From Desulforamulus ruminis DSM 2154 (GTDB taxonomy: Bacteria; Bacillota; Desulfotomaculia; Desulfotomaculales; Desulfotomaculaceae), in the NCBI RefSeq assembly GCF_000215085.1, contig NC_015589.1:558001-622000 (forward strand): a stretch of DNA of 64,000 nt. The letters are read 5' to 3'. Under the pieces are notes generated by a model. It ran no database searches, was not told the origin of the DNA, and saw only the letters and a program-made list of their open reading frames with translations. Positions within the stretch are counted from its first letter, which is position 1, and each line of letters opens with the position of its first letter. Shown here piece after piece: positions 1,007 through 34,679 of the stretch. The translations under genes and the position numbers were made by a program.

Positions 1007-1699
1007 TTATAAATGGAAAAAGAGGTAAAGGAGCAGTAAAAGAACCGGTTGGTGTATGAGGTAGATGATCAGTGAATGTTGCCCGGCTGAAACCAGTAAA
1101 GAATTATTCAGGGTAAAGGGGAAAAGACTTTGTTTAGCCGCATACTTCCATCTGCTGAAGGCCACGCCGTAAAGAAAGAGACCGAACCACGGAAAAAGGG
1201 GATAAAAGTCCACCGAATAAAAATCTTCTGTTACAAGTCCCAGGGGGAACAGAAAATTAACCGGGACGTTTATGCCGGATAGATACCGTCCGGACAAGAT
1301 AATCAAAGTTGCCATAAAAAATAAAATCAGCGGTTTTATATGCTTAAACAGGGGATATAAAAGGATACTAACGCCTAGAAAGTGAAGGATACCGAATACA
1401 ATGTTCGAGCCCGGTACGGCCACAGCGGTGGTCAGAGTAATAACAAATCCCAGGAACAGGAGGATAACCCCCCGTTTCAAATTATTTTTACTTAGGGAAC
1501 TGCTGATACCGGCAATAAAAATAAACAAACAGGCTGCGGCTTTGCCGGTATAATAAATGATGCCTTGTTCATAGTGAATCTGTACGTCATAAAATGCTGC
1601 CAGATCGTACATGAAGTGAAAAAAGACCATCAGCAGGATGGCGATACCCCGAAAAAAATCCAGTTCCCAGATACGAGAAGGATTCTTTCCATTTAGCAT
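1007..1699 (-). CDS. DUF1624 / HGSNAT-catalytic-like multipass membrane protein
   Basis: About 230 residues, polytopic. The N-terminus (SRIWELDFFRGIAILLMV) is the typical entry of the DUF1624 / heparan-alpha-glucosaminide N-acetyltransferase-like family, followed by about seven hydrophobic segments and a final QHSLIIYLIHQP motif. These proteins are thought to be membrane acyltransferases; the substrate here is unknown. I chose the ATG at 1699 because AAGG lies 8 bases upstream. A longer frame reaching 1798 adds a hydrophobic stretch without a ribosome site and is less likely. It stands alone between uppP and another small membrane gene on the same strand. Confidence 0.8.
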   Translation of the reverse strand: MLNGKNPSRIWELDFFRGIAILLMVFFHFMYDLAAFYDVQIHYEQGIIYYTGKAAACLFIFIAGISSSLSKNNLKRGVILLFLGFVITLTTAVAVPGSNIVFGILHFLGVSILLYPLFKHIKPLILFFMATLIILSGRYLSGINVPVNFLFPLGLVTEDFYSVDFYPLFPWFGLFLYGVAFSRWKYAAKQSLFPFTLNNSLLVSAGQHSLIIYLIHQPVLLLLLYLFFHL

Positions 1700-18935: not shown

Positions 18936-19098
18936 AAAAATAAAAAGAGATGAAAAAACAGTCCCTGAAACGATTGATTGAGATTGAGGAAAACCATTTC
19001 GTACAAAGAACTAAAACGGATTTTTTTAAAGGAAAATGAGGCTGTACTTTGTAATTTAACAGGCGTAGTATTGGTTCAGTGACAACCATACAATCTTA

Positions 19099-19285
19099 TA
19101 AGCGCTGAATTCAGTTGAAACGGGGGAACCAATTTTCAGGGGTGAATCCATCACGTTATGGTAGGGTTAATCTTCGACCCGAATCCGTCAGCTAACCTCG
19201 TAAGCGTGGAAGAAATAATCCGGGTTTTGACCTGGATTACTTGTCATGCCATGCCAACGGACGGTGCTTTTAAGCGCCGTTATTT
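19099..19285 (+). promoter_or_regulatory. c-di-AMP (ydaO/yuaA) riboswitch with terminator
   Basis: The leader of the KimA-like gene contains the ydaO-class conserved blocks in the right order: GGGGGAACC (near 19132-19140), GGGGTGAATCC (19139-19150 region), TAGGGTTAATC, CGACCCGAATCCGTCAGCTA and ACCTCGTAAGCG. An expression-platform terminator follows: ACGGTGCTT/AAGCGCCGT hairpin at 19261-19280 plus TATTTTTA. In known members, c-di-AMP binding promotes termination and lowers K+ importer synthesis. The 5' boundary is approximate. Confidence 0.93.
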
Positions 19286-29736: not shown

Positions 29737-31008
29737 ATGTTTAAAGTAAGGAGCCTGATTCTATGGATCACCATAGCCGTTTTTTCAACCGCCTGTACCG
29801 GGGTAACACCGGAAAGGGAAGTCGGCAAGAGTGGGCCTATGAACAAAGAAAATTTTACGGCAGCCATTGTCAAGGGGGATGCCGATGCCGTCAGCTTATT
29901 TCTTGAATCCGGCATGGCGCCGGGAGAAAAGGATGCCAACGGAGTTCCCGCTATTATTCTGGCCTCCGGGCAAGGCCATGACGCCATTGTCAATATGCTG
30001 TTGAAAAGGGGTGCGGGGGCCAATGAAAAGGATTCCGCCAACATGACTGGGTTAATGGCTGCCGCCGGAAATGGTCATGAAGCGGCGGCAAAAATATTGA
30101 TTGATCACGGTGCGGAAGTCAACGCCAGGAGTAACGGTCACATCACGGCTTTGCAATGTGCCGCGGGAGGCGGACATACCCAACTGGTAAAAATGCTGCT
30201 GGAAAAGGGTGCGGAGGTGAATGCCGGGAACGATTACGGCACTACCGCTCTCATGTCCGCCGCCGGGGCCGGACATTTGGAGATTGTTAAACTGCTGCTG
30301 GCGAAGGGCGCCGACATCAATGCTAAAAATAAGAGTGGAACAACCGCTCTCATGGCTGCTGCCGGCCAAGGAAGATCCGATGTGGTGAGGTGCTTATTGG
30401 AGCATGGAGCCGATATCAATGCCCAGGACGACAGCGGCGCCTCGGCCCTGTATTGTGCAGTTGGCAAAGGATATTCCGGGATTGTCAAAGAGTTGCTGGC
30501 CCGAGGGGCCGATGTTAATGTCAGGAACCACGGGGGTGCCACGGCGTTGATGTCTGCTGCGGAGACCAACTTCAAGGATATTGTGAAAATGCTGCTGGAA
30601 AAAGGAAGTGAAGTGAATGTTCAAGATACGGATGGCCTCACTGCCTTAATCATTGCGTCTGCCATGGGTTATACGGATATTAGCAAAATGCTCCTGGAGG
30701 CCGGTGCGGATGTCCATTTGCAAGATAAACATGGTATGACGGCCTTGCTCCCGGCAGCCGGAAACGGACACCTGGAAATTGTTAAGCTGCTGCTGGATAA
30801 GGGGGCGGACGTGAATACCAGCAATAACAACGGAGTCACTCCTCTGATGTTTGCCGCAGGAAAAGGGCACAAGCAAACGGTTGAACTCTTACTTGCAAGA
30901 GGGGCTGTGATCGGACAAAGGGATGCCCAAGGCCGTGACGCAATAAAACATGCGGCGGATATGGGCTACAAGGATTTGTCGGTAATGCTGCAGGCAAAAA
31001 AAGTATAA
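29737..31008 (+). CDS. Ankyrin-repeat lipoprotein with 12 repeats
   Basis: 423 residues. A lipoprotein signal (LILWITIAVFSTAC, lipid-modified Cys at residue 20) is followed by 12 consecutive 33-residue ankyrin repeats from about residue 38 to the end; the core pattern is G-TALM-AA--GH-EIVK-LL-KGADVN. It would be anchored outside the cytoplasmic membrane and mediate protein binding. The binding partner is unknown. The repeats are well conserved in the middle and degenerate at both ends, as expected for capping repeats. GGAGG lies just upstream of the ATG. Confidence 0.9.
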   Translation: MFKVRSLILWITIAVFSTACTGVTPEREVGKSGPMNKENFTAAIVKGDADAVSLFLESGMAPGEKDANGVPAIILASGQGHDAIVNMLLKRGAGANEKDSANMTGLMAAAGNGHEAAAKILIDHGAEVNARSNGHITALQCAAGGGHTQLVKMLLEKGAEVNAGNDYGTTALMSAAGAGHLEIVKLLLAKGADINAKNKSGTTALMAAAGQGRSDVVRCLLEHGADINAQDDSGASALYCAVGKGYSGIVKELLARGADVNVRNHGGATALMSAAETNFKDIVKMLLEKGSEVNVQDTDGLTALIIASAMGYTDISKMLLEAGADVHLQDKHGMTALLPAAGNGHLEIVKLLLDKGADVNTSNNNGVTPLMFAAGKGHKQTVELLLARGAVIGQRDAQGRDAIKHAADMGYKDLSVMLQAKKV

Positions 31009-31170
31009 ATCCGGCCCCCTGTTATGGTTAATGCTAGAGGATTGTCGTAGGAATGTGATCTTCCTGAAAGGCTTCTGTAATCCTTTGATGTTATAGTTAA
31101 GAAAACCTAGCGGGGTGAAGTTTTTGGTTTTATTCTGAGCGTTTGAGCAAGAATTAGGGCGGTGAAGTCT

Positions 31171-32154
31171 ATGAGAAAGCTACTTTTTCTGCCGTCAAGA
31201 AATTTGTCGCTGACCATTCCTATGGTCATACTGGCGGGATTTATGGCCGGTTTGACCGTTAATACCAGCGGATTAAACCAATATATTCTACCTGTAACCA
31301 TTTTAATGATTTACCCAATTATGATTGGTATAAAAACAGAAGAAATTTTCACGCCCAGTCACAACAAACTCTTATTGGTTTCCCTGGGGATTAATTTTAT
31401 CATCATCCCTCTGCTGGCCTATTTGCTGGGCACGTTTTTTTTACTGGGAGACACCTATTTATTTGCCGGTCTGGCCATTGCCTCTATTCTTCCTACTTCC
31501 AACATGTCCATTGCCTTTACCATGTTTGCCCGGGGGAATGTGGCTGCATCCATTAAATTAACTGTTATCGGTCTGATTCTGGGGGCGATTTTAGCGCCCT
31601 GGTATCTGCTGTTGATGGTTGGCAGATACTTACCCATGGATGTTTGGGCCACTACCAAATTGGTTGGATTGTTGGTATTGCTGCCGCTGACCATGGGCAT
31701 CCTCACTCACGGGCTATTATTACGCCGGTATTCCAGGGATCATTTCGAAAGCAGGATTAAACCCTATTTGCCGGCAATCAGTACCTGGGGAGCTCTCTAC
31801 ATTGTTTTTACTTCCATCAGTATGAATGCGCACCGTGTTATCGCCGAACCCCGGCTGCTGCTGATGGGCTTGCTGGTGCAGGTGATTTTTTACGGGATCA
31901 ACTACGCCATTACCATAAAAATAGGGCGTACCTTTTTTGAACGGAAGGATGCCATTGCCCTGGTATATGGTACGGCCCTGCGAAACTTGTCCATTTCGGT
32001 AGGGCTGGCAGCCACGGCCTTTGGCCCTCATGCCGCTCTGATGGTTTCCCTGGCTTTTTTACTGCAAGGGCAGGCGGCAGCCTGGTTCTGCAGGTTATTT
32101 GAAAAAAACAGGATTCTACCGGAAAAGATCAATCATGCGGGGGTTGGGTTATAG
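31171..32154 (+). CDS. Bile-acid:sodium symporter / ACR3-like transporter
   Basis: About 327 residues with ten membrane segments of the BART superfamily (bile acid/Na+ symporter, arsenite ACR3). Useful marks are LAIASILPTSNMSIAFTMFARGN and YGTALRNLSISVGLAATAFGP near the C-terminus. No arsenic-resistance genes are adjacent, so arsenite export is not supported beyond the fold, and an organic anion is equally possible. The ribosome site is weak (GGGCGGTGAAG). ATG 31171 is preferred over the GTG at 31162. Confidence 0.75.
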   Translation: MRKLLFLPSRNLSLTIPMVILAGFMAGLTVNTSGLNQYILPVTILMIYPIMIGIKTEEIFTPSHNKLLLVSLGINFIIIPLLAYLLGTFFLLGDTYLFAGLAIASILPTSNMSIAFTMFARGNVAASIKLTVIGLILGAILAPWYLLLMVGRYLPMDVWATTKLVGLLVLLPLTMGILTHGLLLRRYSRDHFESRIKPYLPAISTWGALYIVFTSISMNAHRVIAEPRLLLMGLLVQVIFYGINYAITIKIGRTFFERKDAIALVYGTALRNLSISVGLAATAFGPHAALMVSLAFLLQGQAAAWFCRLFEKNRILPEKINHAGVGL

Positions 32155-32215: not shown

Positions 32216-32243
32216 TTTACAAACCTAAAAAAATCACTATAAT
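32216..32243 (+). promoter_or_regulatory. Near-consensus housekeeping promoter of the candidate ncRNA
   Basis: TTTACA (32216-32221), 16-base spacer, TATAAT (32238-32243). Transcription would start near 32250, directly at the 5' strand of the closing helix of the RNA below. Confidence 0.8.
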
Positions 32244-32249
32244 TAACCT

Positions 32250-32532
32250 TAAGGGGAACGTCAACTTTTGGCTTTAGGTACGACACAATTCTGTTGTATT
32301 TGGTACTTGGTTTAGGTAAAAATGTCCCATATGGTTGGTTAAATCAAGTGGTAAGCGAAGTTCGTTGTAATTCCCTGTATGAAAGAAAGAGGCTAAGTGA
32401 AAAAATAGTGAGTAAAGTCGGAATGACCATTTGTAAGTCGGTGTTTCTGGAATCCAGTTCGACCCGCGACACCAAGGTTGGCGTTCCCCGATTATAAAAC
32501 CCAGGATTAATTCCTGGGTTTTAAGTTTTTTT
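32250..32532 (+). ncRNA. Candidate structured non-coding RNA, family not recognised
   Basis: About 280 bases from promoter to terminator with no credible protein. The first transcribed bases GGGGAACGTCAAC (32253-32265) pair with GTTGGCGTTCCCC (32477-32489), giving 13 continuous pairs with one U-G, and the helix can extend through UUGG/CCAA. Inside are smaller hairpins (CTGG-aat-CCAG at 32447-32457; ACAA/TTGT near 32287-32299) and conserved-looking single strands. A clean terminator follows. The layout resembles stand-alone RNAs such as 6S or raiA RNA, but I found no decisive signature. A 67-codon frame inside (32294-32497) lacks a ribosome site. Confidence 0.7.
32496..32532 (+). terminator. 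Terminator of the candidate ncRNA
   Basis: AAAACCCAGG (32496-32505) pairs with CCTGGGTTTT (32513-32522), followed by AAGTTTTTTT. Confidence 0.9.
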
Positions 32533-32891: not shown

Positions 32892-34679
32892 GTGGCAAAA
32901 AGAAGAAGCATGAACTGCTGGGAACATTTAAAATGCCCGGAGGATCGTAAAAGCCAGTGCCCTGCATTTACACAAAAAAGAGGGGGAGATTGTTGGAAGG
33001 TTGAGCGAACTCTGTGCCGGGGTGAGTTGCAGGGTACCATGGCTCAAAAAATTGGCTCCTGTAGAAAATGTGATTTTTATTCATCCAAGAATGCCATGAG
33101 CATGTCTTTAAAGGTTAAACTAATGCTGGCCTTTGCCTTTATATTGGCTTTGCTGGCGGGTGTTGCCGGTTTTACCGTTTATGAGATGAAAGTGATCGAC
33201 CAGTCCTATAATGTTTTAATCCAAGAAAGAGCCCAGGTAGCCATTGTCAGTACCGAAGCCGTTATTGCTTATCAGGAAAATGCCTTGAATGTAAGAACCT
33301 TTTTACTTACGGGCAGTCCTGATTATACCAAACGTTATGCTGAGAAGATTGGAGAGGTTGAACAAAAATTTAGAGAACTGGAGCAACTGGTACAGACGGA
33401 AACGGGCAAAAGAATGCTGGCTGATTTTAAAACGGGCTATCAGGAATTTGCAGCGTATGCAGACCAGGGCTTTGCCCTGAAAGAGAAGGCCTTGTCCGAT
33501 CCTACCAGGGATTACAACCAGGAGATTGATGACTATCTGAATGCCAATAAAGGCATTGTAAAAAAAGTTACGGACCAGGGAAAAGCTTTAGCCGATTATG
33601 CTTATGGGCTTTTGGATGCCGGACATAAGCAAAATACTGAACGGGGCAAGGCCTTAGTATCTACTTGTATCATCCTTAGCCTGGTTGCATTTTTGGCAGG
33701 CTTGCTGGCAGCTCTCTACATGGGCAGAGTTGTTGTCAATCCTGTCCGGATGCTGGAAAGCAGTGCCTCAAAGGTTGCCGCCGGAGATCTTACGGTGGAC
33801 GAATTAGAAATTAAAAACCGGGATGAAATCGGACTTTTAGCCATGGCCTTTAACCAGATGGTGGTAAGCTTACGGGATATTGCCCATCAGTTAAAAGAAA
33901 AATCCCAGCAGGTTGCTTCATCCGCTCAACAGCTTAACTCCAGTGCGGAAGAAATGTCGTCTGTGACCATGGAGACCAGTTCAACAGTTTCTGAGATCGC
34001 CGCAACCGTTGAAAATGTAGCTTCCGATGCACAAAATGTTGCTTCTTCGTCGGATGTGGCTTTGAACTTTGCCAAGGAAGGTACCACTGCGGTGGAGCGG
34101 GTTACTTCCCAGATGCAGACCATTAGTCATTCAACCAACATTGTGGATGAACGTATCAATAGTCTGGGGCAGAAATCCCACGAAATCTCCCAGATTGTTG
34201 AGTTAATCACGCAAATTGCCGATCAAACCAACCTGCTGGCCTTAAATGCGGCCATTGAAGCGGCCAGGGCCGGCGAAGCCGGACGCGGTTTTGCGGTGGT
34301 TGCCGAAGAGGTGCGCAAGCTGGCTGAGCAATCTGCCTCTGCAGCTCAAGAAATTAAAGAATTAATTGGTGCCATTCAAGATGAATCCGATGAAGCCGTC
34401 AAGGCCATGGTCAATGGAGCCAGGGAAGTTCAAGAGGGCAATCTTGTGGTTTCCGAAGTAGGAAACACTTTTCAAAATATTATTCAGACCATCACCGGCT
34501 TAGCAGAACAAGTTCATACCGTGGCGGCGGCCTCCCAGGAGATGGCCTCGGGCATTCAAAATGTAGCCGGAGCCACCCAGGAACAAAGTGCCTCTATGGA
34601 GGAAATTACCGCAACGGCAGAAGCCCTGGCCCAGATGTCTGTCAGTCTGGATGAGCTGGCGGATCGTTTTAAACTATAA
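32892..34679 (+). CDS. Methyl-accepting chemotaxis protein with N-terminal Cys-rich (two-CW-like) domain
   Basis: 595 residues. N-terminal cytosolic Cys-rich segment with Cys 9, 15, 23, 34, 42, 57 and 60 (CW pairs at 9-10 and 34-35, CRKC at 57-60). A membrane helix near 78-97 is followed by an extracytoplasmic four-helix-like sensor (to about 250), a second membrane helix, a HAMP domain ([20 protein letters not shown]) and the signalling domain with hairpin tip [20 protein letters not shown]. The Cys domain is an unusual addition and may bind metal. GTG start 6 bases after AAGGGGG. Confidence 0.9.

Follow-up and report, generated by a model that had tools for sequence, protein, structure and literature searches.

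A stand-alone, structured non-coding RNA of about 280 nt is predicted within the window, the 64,000-nucleotide stretch of the Desulforamulus ruminis DSM 2154 genome analysed here (G000:C1:558001-622000; genome of 3,969,014 bp in a single contig). Judged by comparison of sequences, an RNA gene is almost certainly present at this locus, and in all likelihood it belongs to a new family. RNAs of this kind are known; the family itself is very probably absent from Rfam 15, and its patchy distribution very probably takes in at least four families within a single phylum. The comparison brought out a promoter and a terminator belonging to the RNA itself, a conserved structure and no conserved open reading frame, as would be expected of a stand-alone structured RNA.

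A predicted RNA gene between a transporter gene and a chemotaxis receptor gene

The RNA locus is situated between a gene for an SBF-family transporter (31162–32154) and a chemotaxis receptor gene (32892–34679), both on the strand of the RNA. Upstream, at 29737–31008 (+), there is a repetitive ORF of 423 aa that looks ankyrin-repeat-like by eye. The features of the RNA locus are as follows (genomes carry G numbers, D. ruminis being G000).

32216–32221, plus strand: −35 hexamer TTTACA, from the promoter scan
32238–32243, plus strand: −10 hexamer TATAAT, from the promoter scan, with a spacer of 16 to the −35 hexamer
32250–32532, plus strand: RNA gene of about 280 nt, predicted start at about 32249–32252, with ten further members
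32253–32265, plus strand: 5′ strand of P1, the helix closing the RNA
32266–32276, plus strand: proposed 5′ strand of P2 (genus only; hand alignment, moderate support), missing from the minimum free energy fold of the window RNA itself
32350–32363, plus strand: core GGUAAGCGAAGUUC, which includes the proposed 3′ strand of P2 at 32352–32359
32369–32376, plus strand: AAUUCCCU, with UUCCCU at 32371–32376
32477–32489, plus strand: 3′ strand of P1, from the P1 comparison across 11 members
32495–32532, plus strand: intrinsic terminator hairpin and T-run

The TTTACA-N16-TATAAT promoter named in a preliminary description of this DNA was borne out by the scan: it agreed with the consensus at 11 of 12 positions and ranked first among the eight promoter-like sites between 31900 and 32900, where shuffled sequences gave 2.6 ± 1.9. 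The terminator proposed there was likewise recovered, with a stem at 32495–32523 followed by the T-run, and a hairpin lies at a like place in all 11 members; the number of terminator-like sites in the region (two, against 1.4 ± 1.1 in shuffles) is by itself no evidence. Internal structure had also been claimed, and the RNA (32248–32532) folded at −90.6 kcal/mol compared with −66.6 ± 4.5 kcal/mol for 200 shuffles (z = −5.3), none of which equalled it.

No plausible protein had been seen in the RNA, and this assessment held. A small protein gene would have in its favour the 80 codons that are open in the window RNA; however, the longest open frames were of 26–39 codons in the six counterparts from the genus and of 32–37 in the four members outside it, no reading frame was conserved across the 11 members, and a 67-aa ORF with a TTG start in the window RNA gave no Pfam match. 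A coding gene was thus rejected, and the probability left to a small protein is next to nil. As the RNA is flanked by two genes on its own strand, it might alternatively be taken for a cis-acting element belonging to the chemotaxis gene that follows or to the transporter mRNA that precedes it, but the RNA has its own promoter and terminator and the next start is 360 bp away. Moreover, the nearest long downstream ORF is opposed to the RNA in G002, G003, G005, G006 and G188, although not in G001 (G007 and G382 being ambiguous), and a cis role is very improbable.

A gene pair for a PHO4 phosphate transporter and a DUF47 protein lies within about 3–4 kb of the RNA in G001 (L125), G007 (L126) and G006 (L127), as labelled by Pfam in G001 and by BLAST matches in G006 and G007. 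Since this pair is nearby in all three, their RNAs share an ancestral place. No common neighbourhood was found among the window, G002, G003 and G005 within the 13–20 kb compared; single protein matches connected the neighbourhood of the window with that of G001, and that of G002 with those of G001 and G006. The promoter, end helix and terminator are common to ten other members, mostly in different neighbourhoods where these were compared, which agrees with the stand-alone structured RNA originally proposed.

Distribution of the RNA in the genus and the phylum

The 11 members identified belong to four families within a single phylum. Seven came from the nine Desulforamulus genomes searched, D. 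ruminis included (G000, G001, G002, G003, G005, G006 and G007), and four from outside the class but, according to the kinship labels, from the same phylum: G474 and G414 (family f110), G188 (f78) and G382 (f121). A distribution restricted to the genus was overturned by these four, and the search for conservation in relatives that the preliminary description had put forward thus yielded ten other members. All 11 have a −10 box matching at five or six of six positions, a P1 that opens with GGGGA[A/G]CG and comprises 10 or more pairs, and a hairpin terminator. The −10 box is TATAAT in ten of them and TATATT in G001. By eye, a −35 box TTGACA or TTTACA at a spacing of 16–17 was seen in G001, G002, G003, G005 and G007, TTTACT at a spacing of 17 in G006, and comparable boxes in G188, G382, G414 and G474. 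In the folds of all members the terminator hairpin lies directly 3′ of P1, with differing stem sequences, and the length from P1 strand to P1 strand ranges from about 190 to 380 nt.

BLAST with the window RNA against 60 genomes matched the 3′ ends only, in G002, G005 and G003 (E = 1.4e-4 to 4.1e-4), other matches being at chance level; full-length RNAs were recognized at these three loci by inspection, and pattern searches with P1 led to G001 and G007. A sequence-only model built from six members without G006 (R1) recovered G006 unprompted with E = 1.2e-6. A second sequence-only model (R2) was built from all seven genus members, which it therefore matches by construction, and whose mean column identity is 55%. 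A scan of genome contigs showed that D. putei DSM 12395 carries the same RNA on contig NZ_FQUY01000002.1, the two other matches being due to chance. In the remaining Desulforamulus genomes, G004 and G008, the sequence models gave no convincing match, which is to be read as ‘not found’ and not as ‘absent’. The RNA was likewise not found with R2 in 113 genomes of the order and class, nor in G009, which is no proof of absence. No match to the window RNA was obtained by blastn in plasmids or phages.

Applied to 398 genomes of the phylum, R2 matched three genus members and, weakly, G474, G184 and G341; the limit of its sensitivity is evident from G188, G382 and G414, all of which are in this sample and were missed. 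G474 showed TTTACA-N17-TATAAT, a P1 of GGGGAACGUCAAG with CUUGACGUUCCCC, 285 nt from P1 to P1, and a terminator. Its congener G414 was found by BLAST with the G474 RNA among 29 genomes of its class (E = 3e-35). The G414 RNA contains a run of short internal tandem repeats (L136, approximately 1330–1455, minus strand) with TTAGTTC and TTAGTAG units, which are absent in G474. The pattern TATAAT-N4..11-AGGGGAACG occurred at 18 sites in 17 of 397 phylum genomes, compared with about 23 genomes for the reversed control, and so is not above background. When a partner strand was sought 120–520 bases further on, five sites (G005, G188, G382, G414 and G474) had one with 10–13 contiguous pairs, and also a hairpin directly after it; at the other 13 the partner strand was of 5–8 pairs only. 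A two-strand P1 pattern with 165–225 bases between the strands matched three genomes (G188, G382 and G031), as against five for its reversed control. Among 158 loci scanned, a −10 box (at least five of six) combined with a partner strand forming 10 or more pairs was present only at the 11 members and on the opposite strand of P1 in G002. As the P1 pattern alone is not above background, the case rests on its conjunction with promoter and terminator.

P1 and the layout are the grounds on which the four outside members are taken to be homologous to the window RNA; no alignable interior in common was seen for G188 and G382. Folding was better than in shuffles for the window RNA (as above), for its six genus counterparts (z = −4.9, −4.0, −4.3, −5.0, −3.9 and −3.9) and for G474 (−3.6), G382 (−3.2) and G188 (−2.7), and not better for G414 (−1.6, equalled by nine of 100 shuffles).

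Several candidates were rejected. G184 and G341 are without P1 strands; G031 has both P1 strands and neither −10 box nor terminator; G500, matched in the BLAST search with the G474 RNA, has a short segment in common only, with no P1 nearby by eye; and L109, a weak second match in G000, is without the anatomy of a member. The weak R1 and R2 matches kept as loci revealed no P1 partner plus −10 box on scanning. At L108 (approximately 1502–1528 of G002:C16; R1 E = 0.0017), AGGGGAACGCCAAGG followed by TTTTAGAGG resembles the 5′ strand of the RNA and the rest is missing; without P1 partner and −10 box, this segment is either a remnant or due to chance.

The end helix P1

A 13-bp helix joining the first bases of the RNA to bases some 225 further on had been described, and it corresponds to P1, in which GGGGAACGUCAAC (32253–32265) pairs with GUUGGCGUUCCCC (32477–32489), 224–236 bases further on. 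RNAalifold returned P1 on each of four MAFFT alignments of five sequences, other helices being inconsistent. Across the 11 members, positions 1–10 of P1 are paired in 110 of 110 cells, and the letters at positions 1–8 and 10 are constant except for G-U at position 2 in G414 and at position 6 in G006. Position 9 is C-G in eight members, U-A in two and U-G in one, and position 11 is A-U in six, G-C in one, U-A in one and unpaired in three; position 13 is paired in six. The compensatory changes for which relatives were to be inspected thus exist in part: two-sided changes appear at positions 9 and 11 when the outside members are included, whereas within the genus both changes seen at positions 1–10 are one-sided.

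If pairing were all that mattered, one pair could be exchanged for another anywhere in P1, as has happened at positions 9 and 11. As positions 1–8 and 10 are static, P1 would either be read by another molecule or pair with a second partner through its 5′ strand; pairing with two partners could be the cause of the invariance. With a sigma-A-like promoter directly before it, P1 joining its ends and the terminator directly behind P1, the RNA would be a stable transcript acting in trans. In the mechanism that we rank first, and hold only tentatively, P1 (GGGGAACG with CGUUCCCC) would be the recognized part, perhaps bound by a conserved protein or another partner, because its sequence is constant across families whose interiors can no longer be aligned, and the RNA may work as a small RNP.

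The proposed helix P2 and the UUCC segment

In Desulforamulus, the sequences suggest an inner helix P2, with moderate support, in addition to the invariant UUCCCU. On free folding, the conserved core was the partner of the segment following P1 in G003, G001 and G006. A hand alignment of five of the seven genus sequences had 40 of 41 cells canonical and two-sided changes at seven of nine pairs, and the true assignment of strands was unique among 120 in pairing that well, with the reservation that positions were picked to pair and that G002 and G005 were dropped as non-fitting. In a duplex test with all seven sequences, own strands gave −9.2 and swapped strands −6.7, which was equalled in 15 of 5040 permutations, or in three of 120 when G002 and G005 were left out. 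In a scan of 15 windows, the values for the two that cover P2 were 58 and 52 of 5040 permutations, as compared with 110, 79, 44 and 66 for windows off P2 at offsets −8, 0, +8 and +32. Forcing P1 and P2 together cost 13.7 (duplex register) or 13.1 kcal/mol (hand register) in the window RNA, 7.6 in G007, 6.0 in G002, 4.8 in G005 and at most 1.5 in G003, G001 and G006.

The UUCCCU downstream of the core is identical in all seven Desulforamulus members. Outside the genus, G188 and G414 have UUCCC, and G382 and G474 just UUCC. A UUCC falls within positions 107–134 in ten of the 11 members, three of the four outside ones among them; G414 has its UUCCC at 260, behind the short repeats. Dinucleotide shuffles placed UUCC in this interval, which was chosen after the fact, in 199 (G188), 326 (G382), 311 (G474) and 302 (G414) of 2000 cases, and its position in the three outside members is suggestive only.

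This pyrimidine-rich segment is central to the explanation ranked second, in which the RNA would be a base-pairing regulator whose UUCC(CU) binds mRNAs at their purine-rich Shine-Dalgarno regions and reduces translation. Among 120 genes from seven loci, AGGGA was present in 16 Shine-Dalgarno zones and in two control zones, and the pairing of the segment with these zones was better than that of 28 of 30 shuffles; yet GGAGG was more frequent there (42 of 120), and the rule by which starts were chosen favours GGGA and AGGG. Only UUCC persists at a similar position outside the genus. With P1 and P2 forced, moreover, UUCCCU was open only in G003, partly open in the window RNA, G005, G006 and G007, and mostly paired in G002 and G001; a hairpin around it was clear in G003 alone. 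UCCC-motif small RNAs include the Rsa RNAs of Staphylococcus, and LhrC RNA is shorter than the RNA described here. Desulforamulus members resemble the LhrC family in having a pyrimidine-rich UCCC segment in a terminator-ended RNA, and differ from it in the closing helix and in a motif that is not clearly open and is reduced to UUCC in some outside members. UCCC-motif RNAs act in this way, and LhrC is a precedent (PMC8079631). Taken together, a base-pairing role is possible but doubtful.

The same segment could explain the invariance of P1 through a folding switch, ranked third, in which the 5′ strand GGGGAAC would pair first with the internal UUCC(C) and later, when the 3′ strand has been transcribed, with that strand. 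Pairing of 6–7 bp with AGGGGAAC at UUCC was the best internal partnership in seven of 11 members (G001, G002, G003, G005, G006, G007 and G382), and the placing of UUCC within 107–134 in ten members, reached by 10–16% of the shuffles of G188, G382 and G474, would fit. However, other stretches pair equally well or better in the window RNA, G188, G474 and G414, 6–8 such pairs easily arise by chance, and the invariance of P1 positions 8 and 10 is left unaccounted for, so that a switch is unlikely.

Comparison with known RNA families

Rfam gave no match at gathering for the locus, nor in L139, L143 and L136; the only match at gathering in the window was a c-di-AMP riboswitch (RF00379) at 19093–19221 (+), with 108 bits. 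Below gathering, matches were at chance level, up to E = 10 for the locus and up to E = 10, 1 or 5 for the loci of other members, and those overlapping the RNA in the six genus counterparts cover the terminator end and score no more than roughly half the gathering value. The size and layout are similar to those of raiA, 6S, SRP, tmRNA and RNase P RNAs, and a divergent member of such a family would account for them. D. ruminis, however, has two 6S RNA genes elsewhere above cut-off (G000:C1:3236317-3236505 and 2799201-2799378), as does every one of the six congeners in that search, and the RNA locus was not one of the two G000 matches to RF00013 (cut-off 46.4 bits). The RNA is like 6S RNA in standing alone with paired ends. 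For raiA (RF03072, gathering 101.3 bits) none of ten genomes had a match above cut-off, a result of unproved sensitivity as none of 14 controls passed either; G000 gave none for this family at E ≤ 10, and the window none at gathering. ARAGORN detected no tmRNA gene in the window, and Rfam gave no tmRNA match. On these results a divergent 6S, raiA or tmRNA was rejected, and a divergent member of any known family is improbable. The lack of a known-family signature noted at the outset persisted in the Rfam comparison, which favours a new family over a divergent known one.

OLE, ROOL and GOLLD are far larger RNAs. Like them, the RNA is an orphan structured RNA; it has no Rfam match. PMC11706538 and PMC11751092 describe raiA (ModT) RNA as stand-alone, with a SigA-type promoter, 200–260 nt in length and with a multi-branched fold closed by P1. 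The window RNA shares the stand-alone layout, the sigma-A-type promoter and the closure by P1, but raiA is reported from more than 2,500 species and has a strongly conserved interior, whereas the interior here is not conserved between families. The literature searched contained no report of this RNA and no small-RNA study of these organisms.

Significance of the RNA

The best explanation as a whole is a stand-alone structured non-coding RNA of a new, patchily distributed family that would act in trans and be recognized through P1, an account we put forward with reserve, at somewhat less than even probability. More speculatively, it might represent an RNP or housekeeping-type class of RNA, thinly spread over the phylum, with a near-invariant end helix and a free interior, in which the 5′ strand may also switch between the internal UUCC and the 3′ strand during synthesis. 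The finding would add a structured RNA family missing from Rfam 15, and one with unusual conservation: across families the sequence of P1 is constant, in contrast to the interior, and this pattern suggests that the helix is the contact site.
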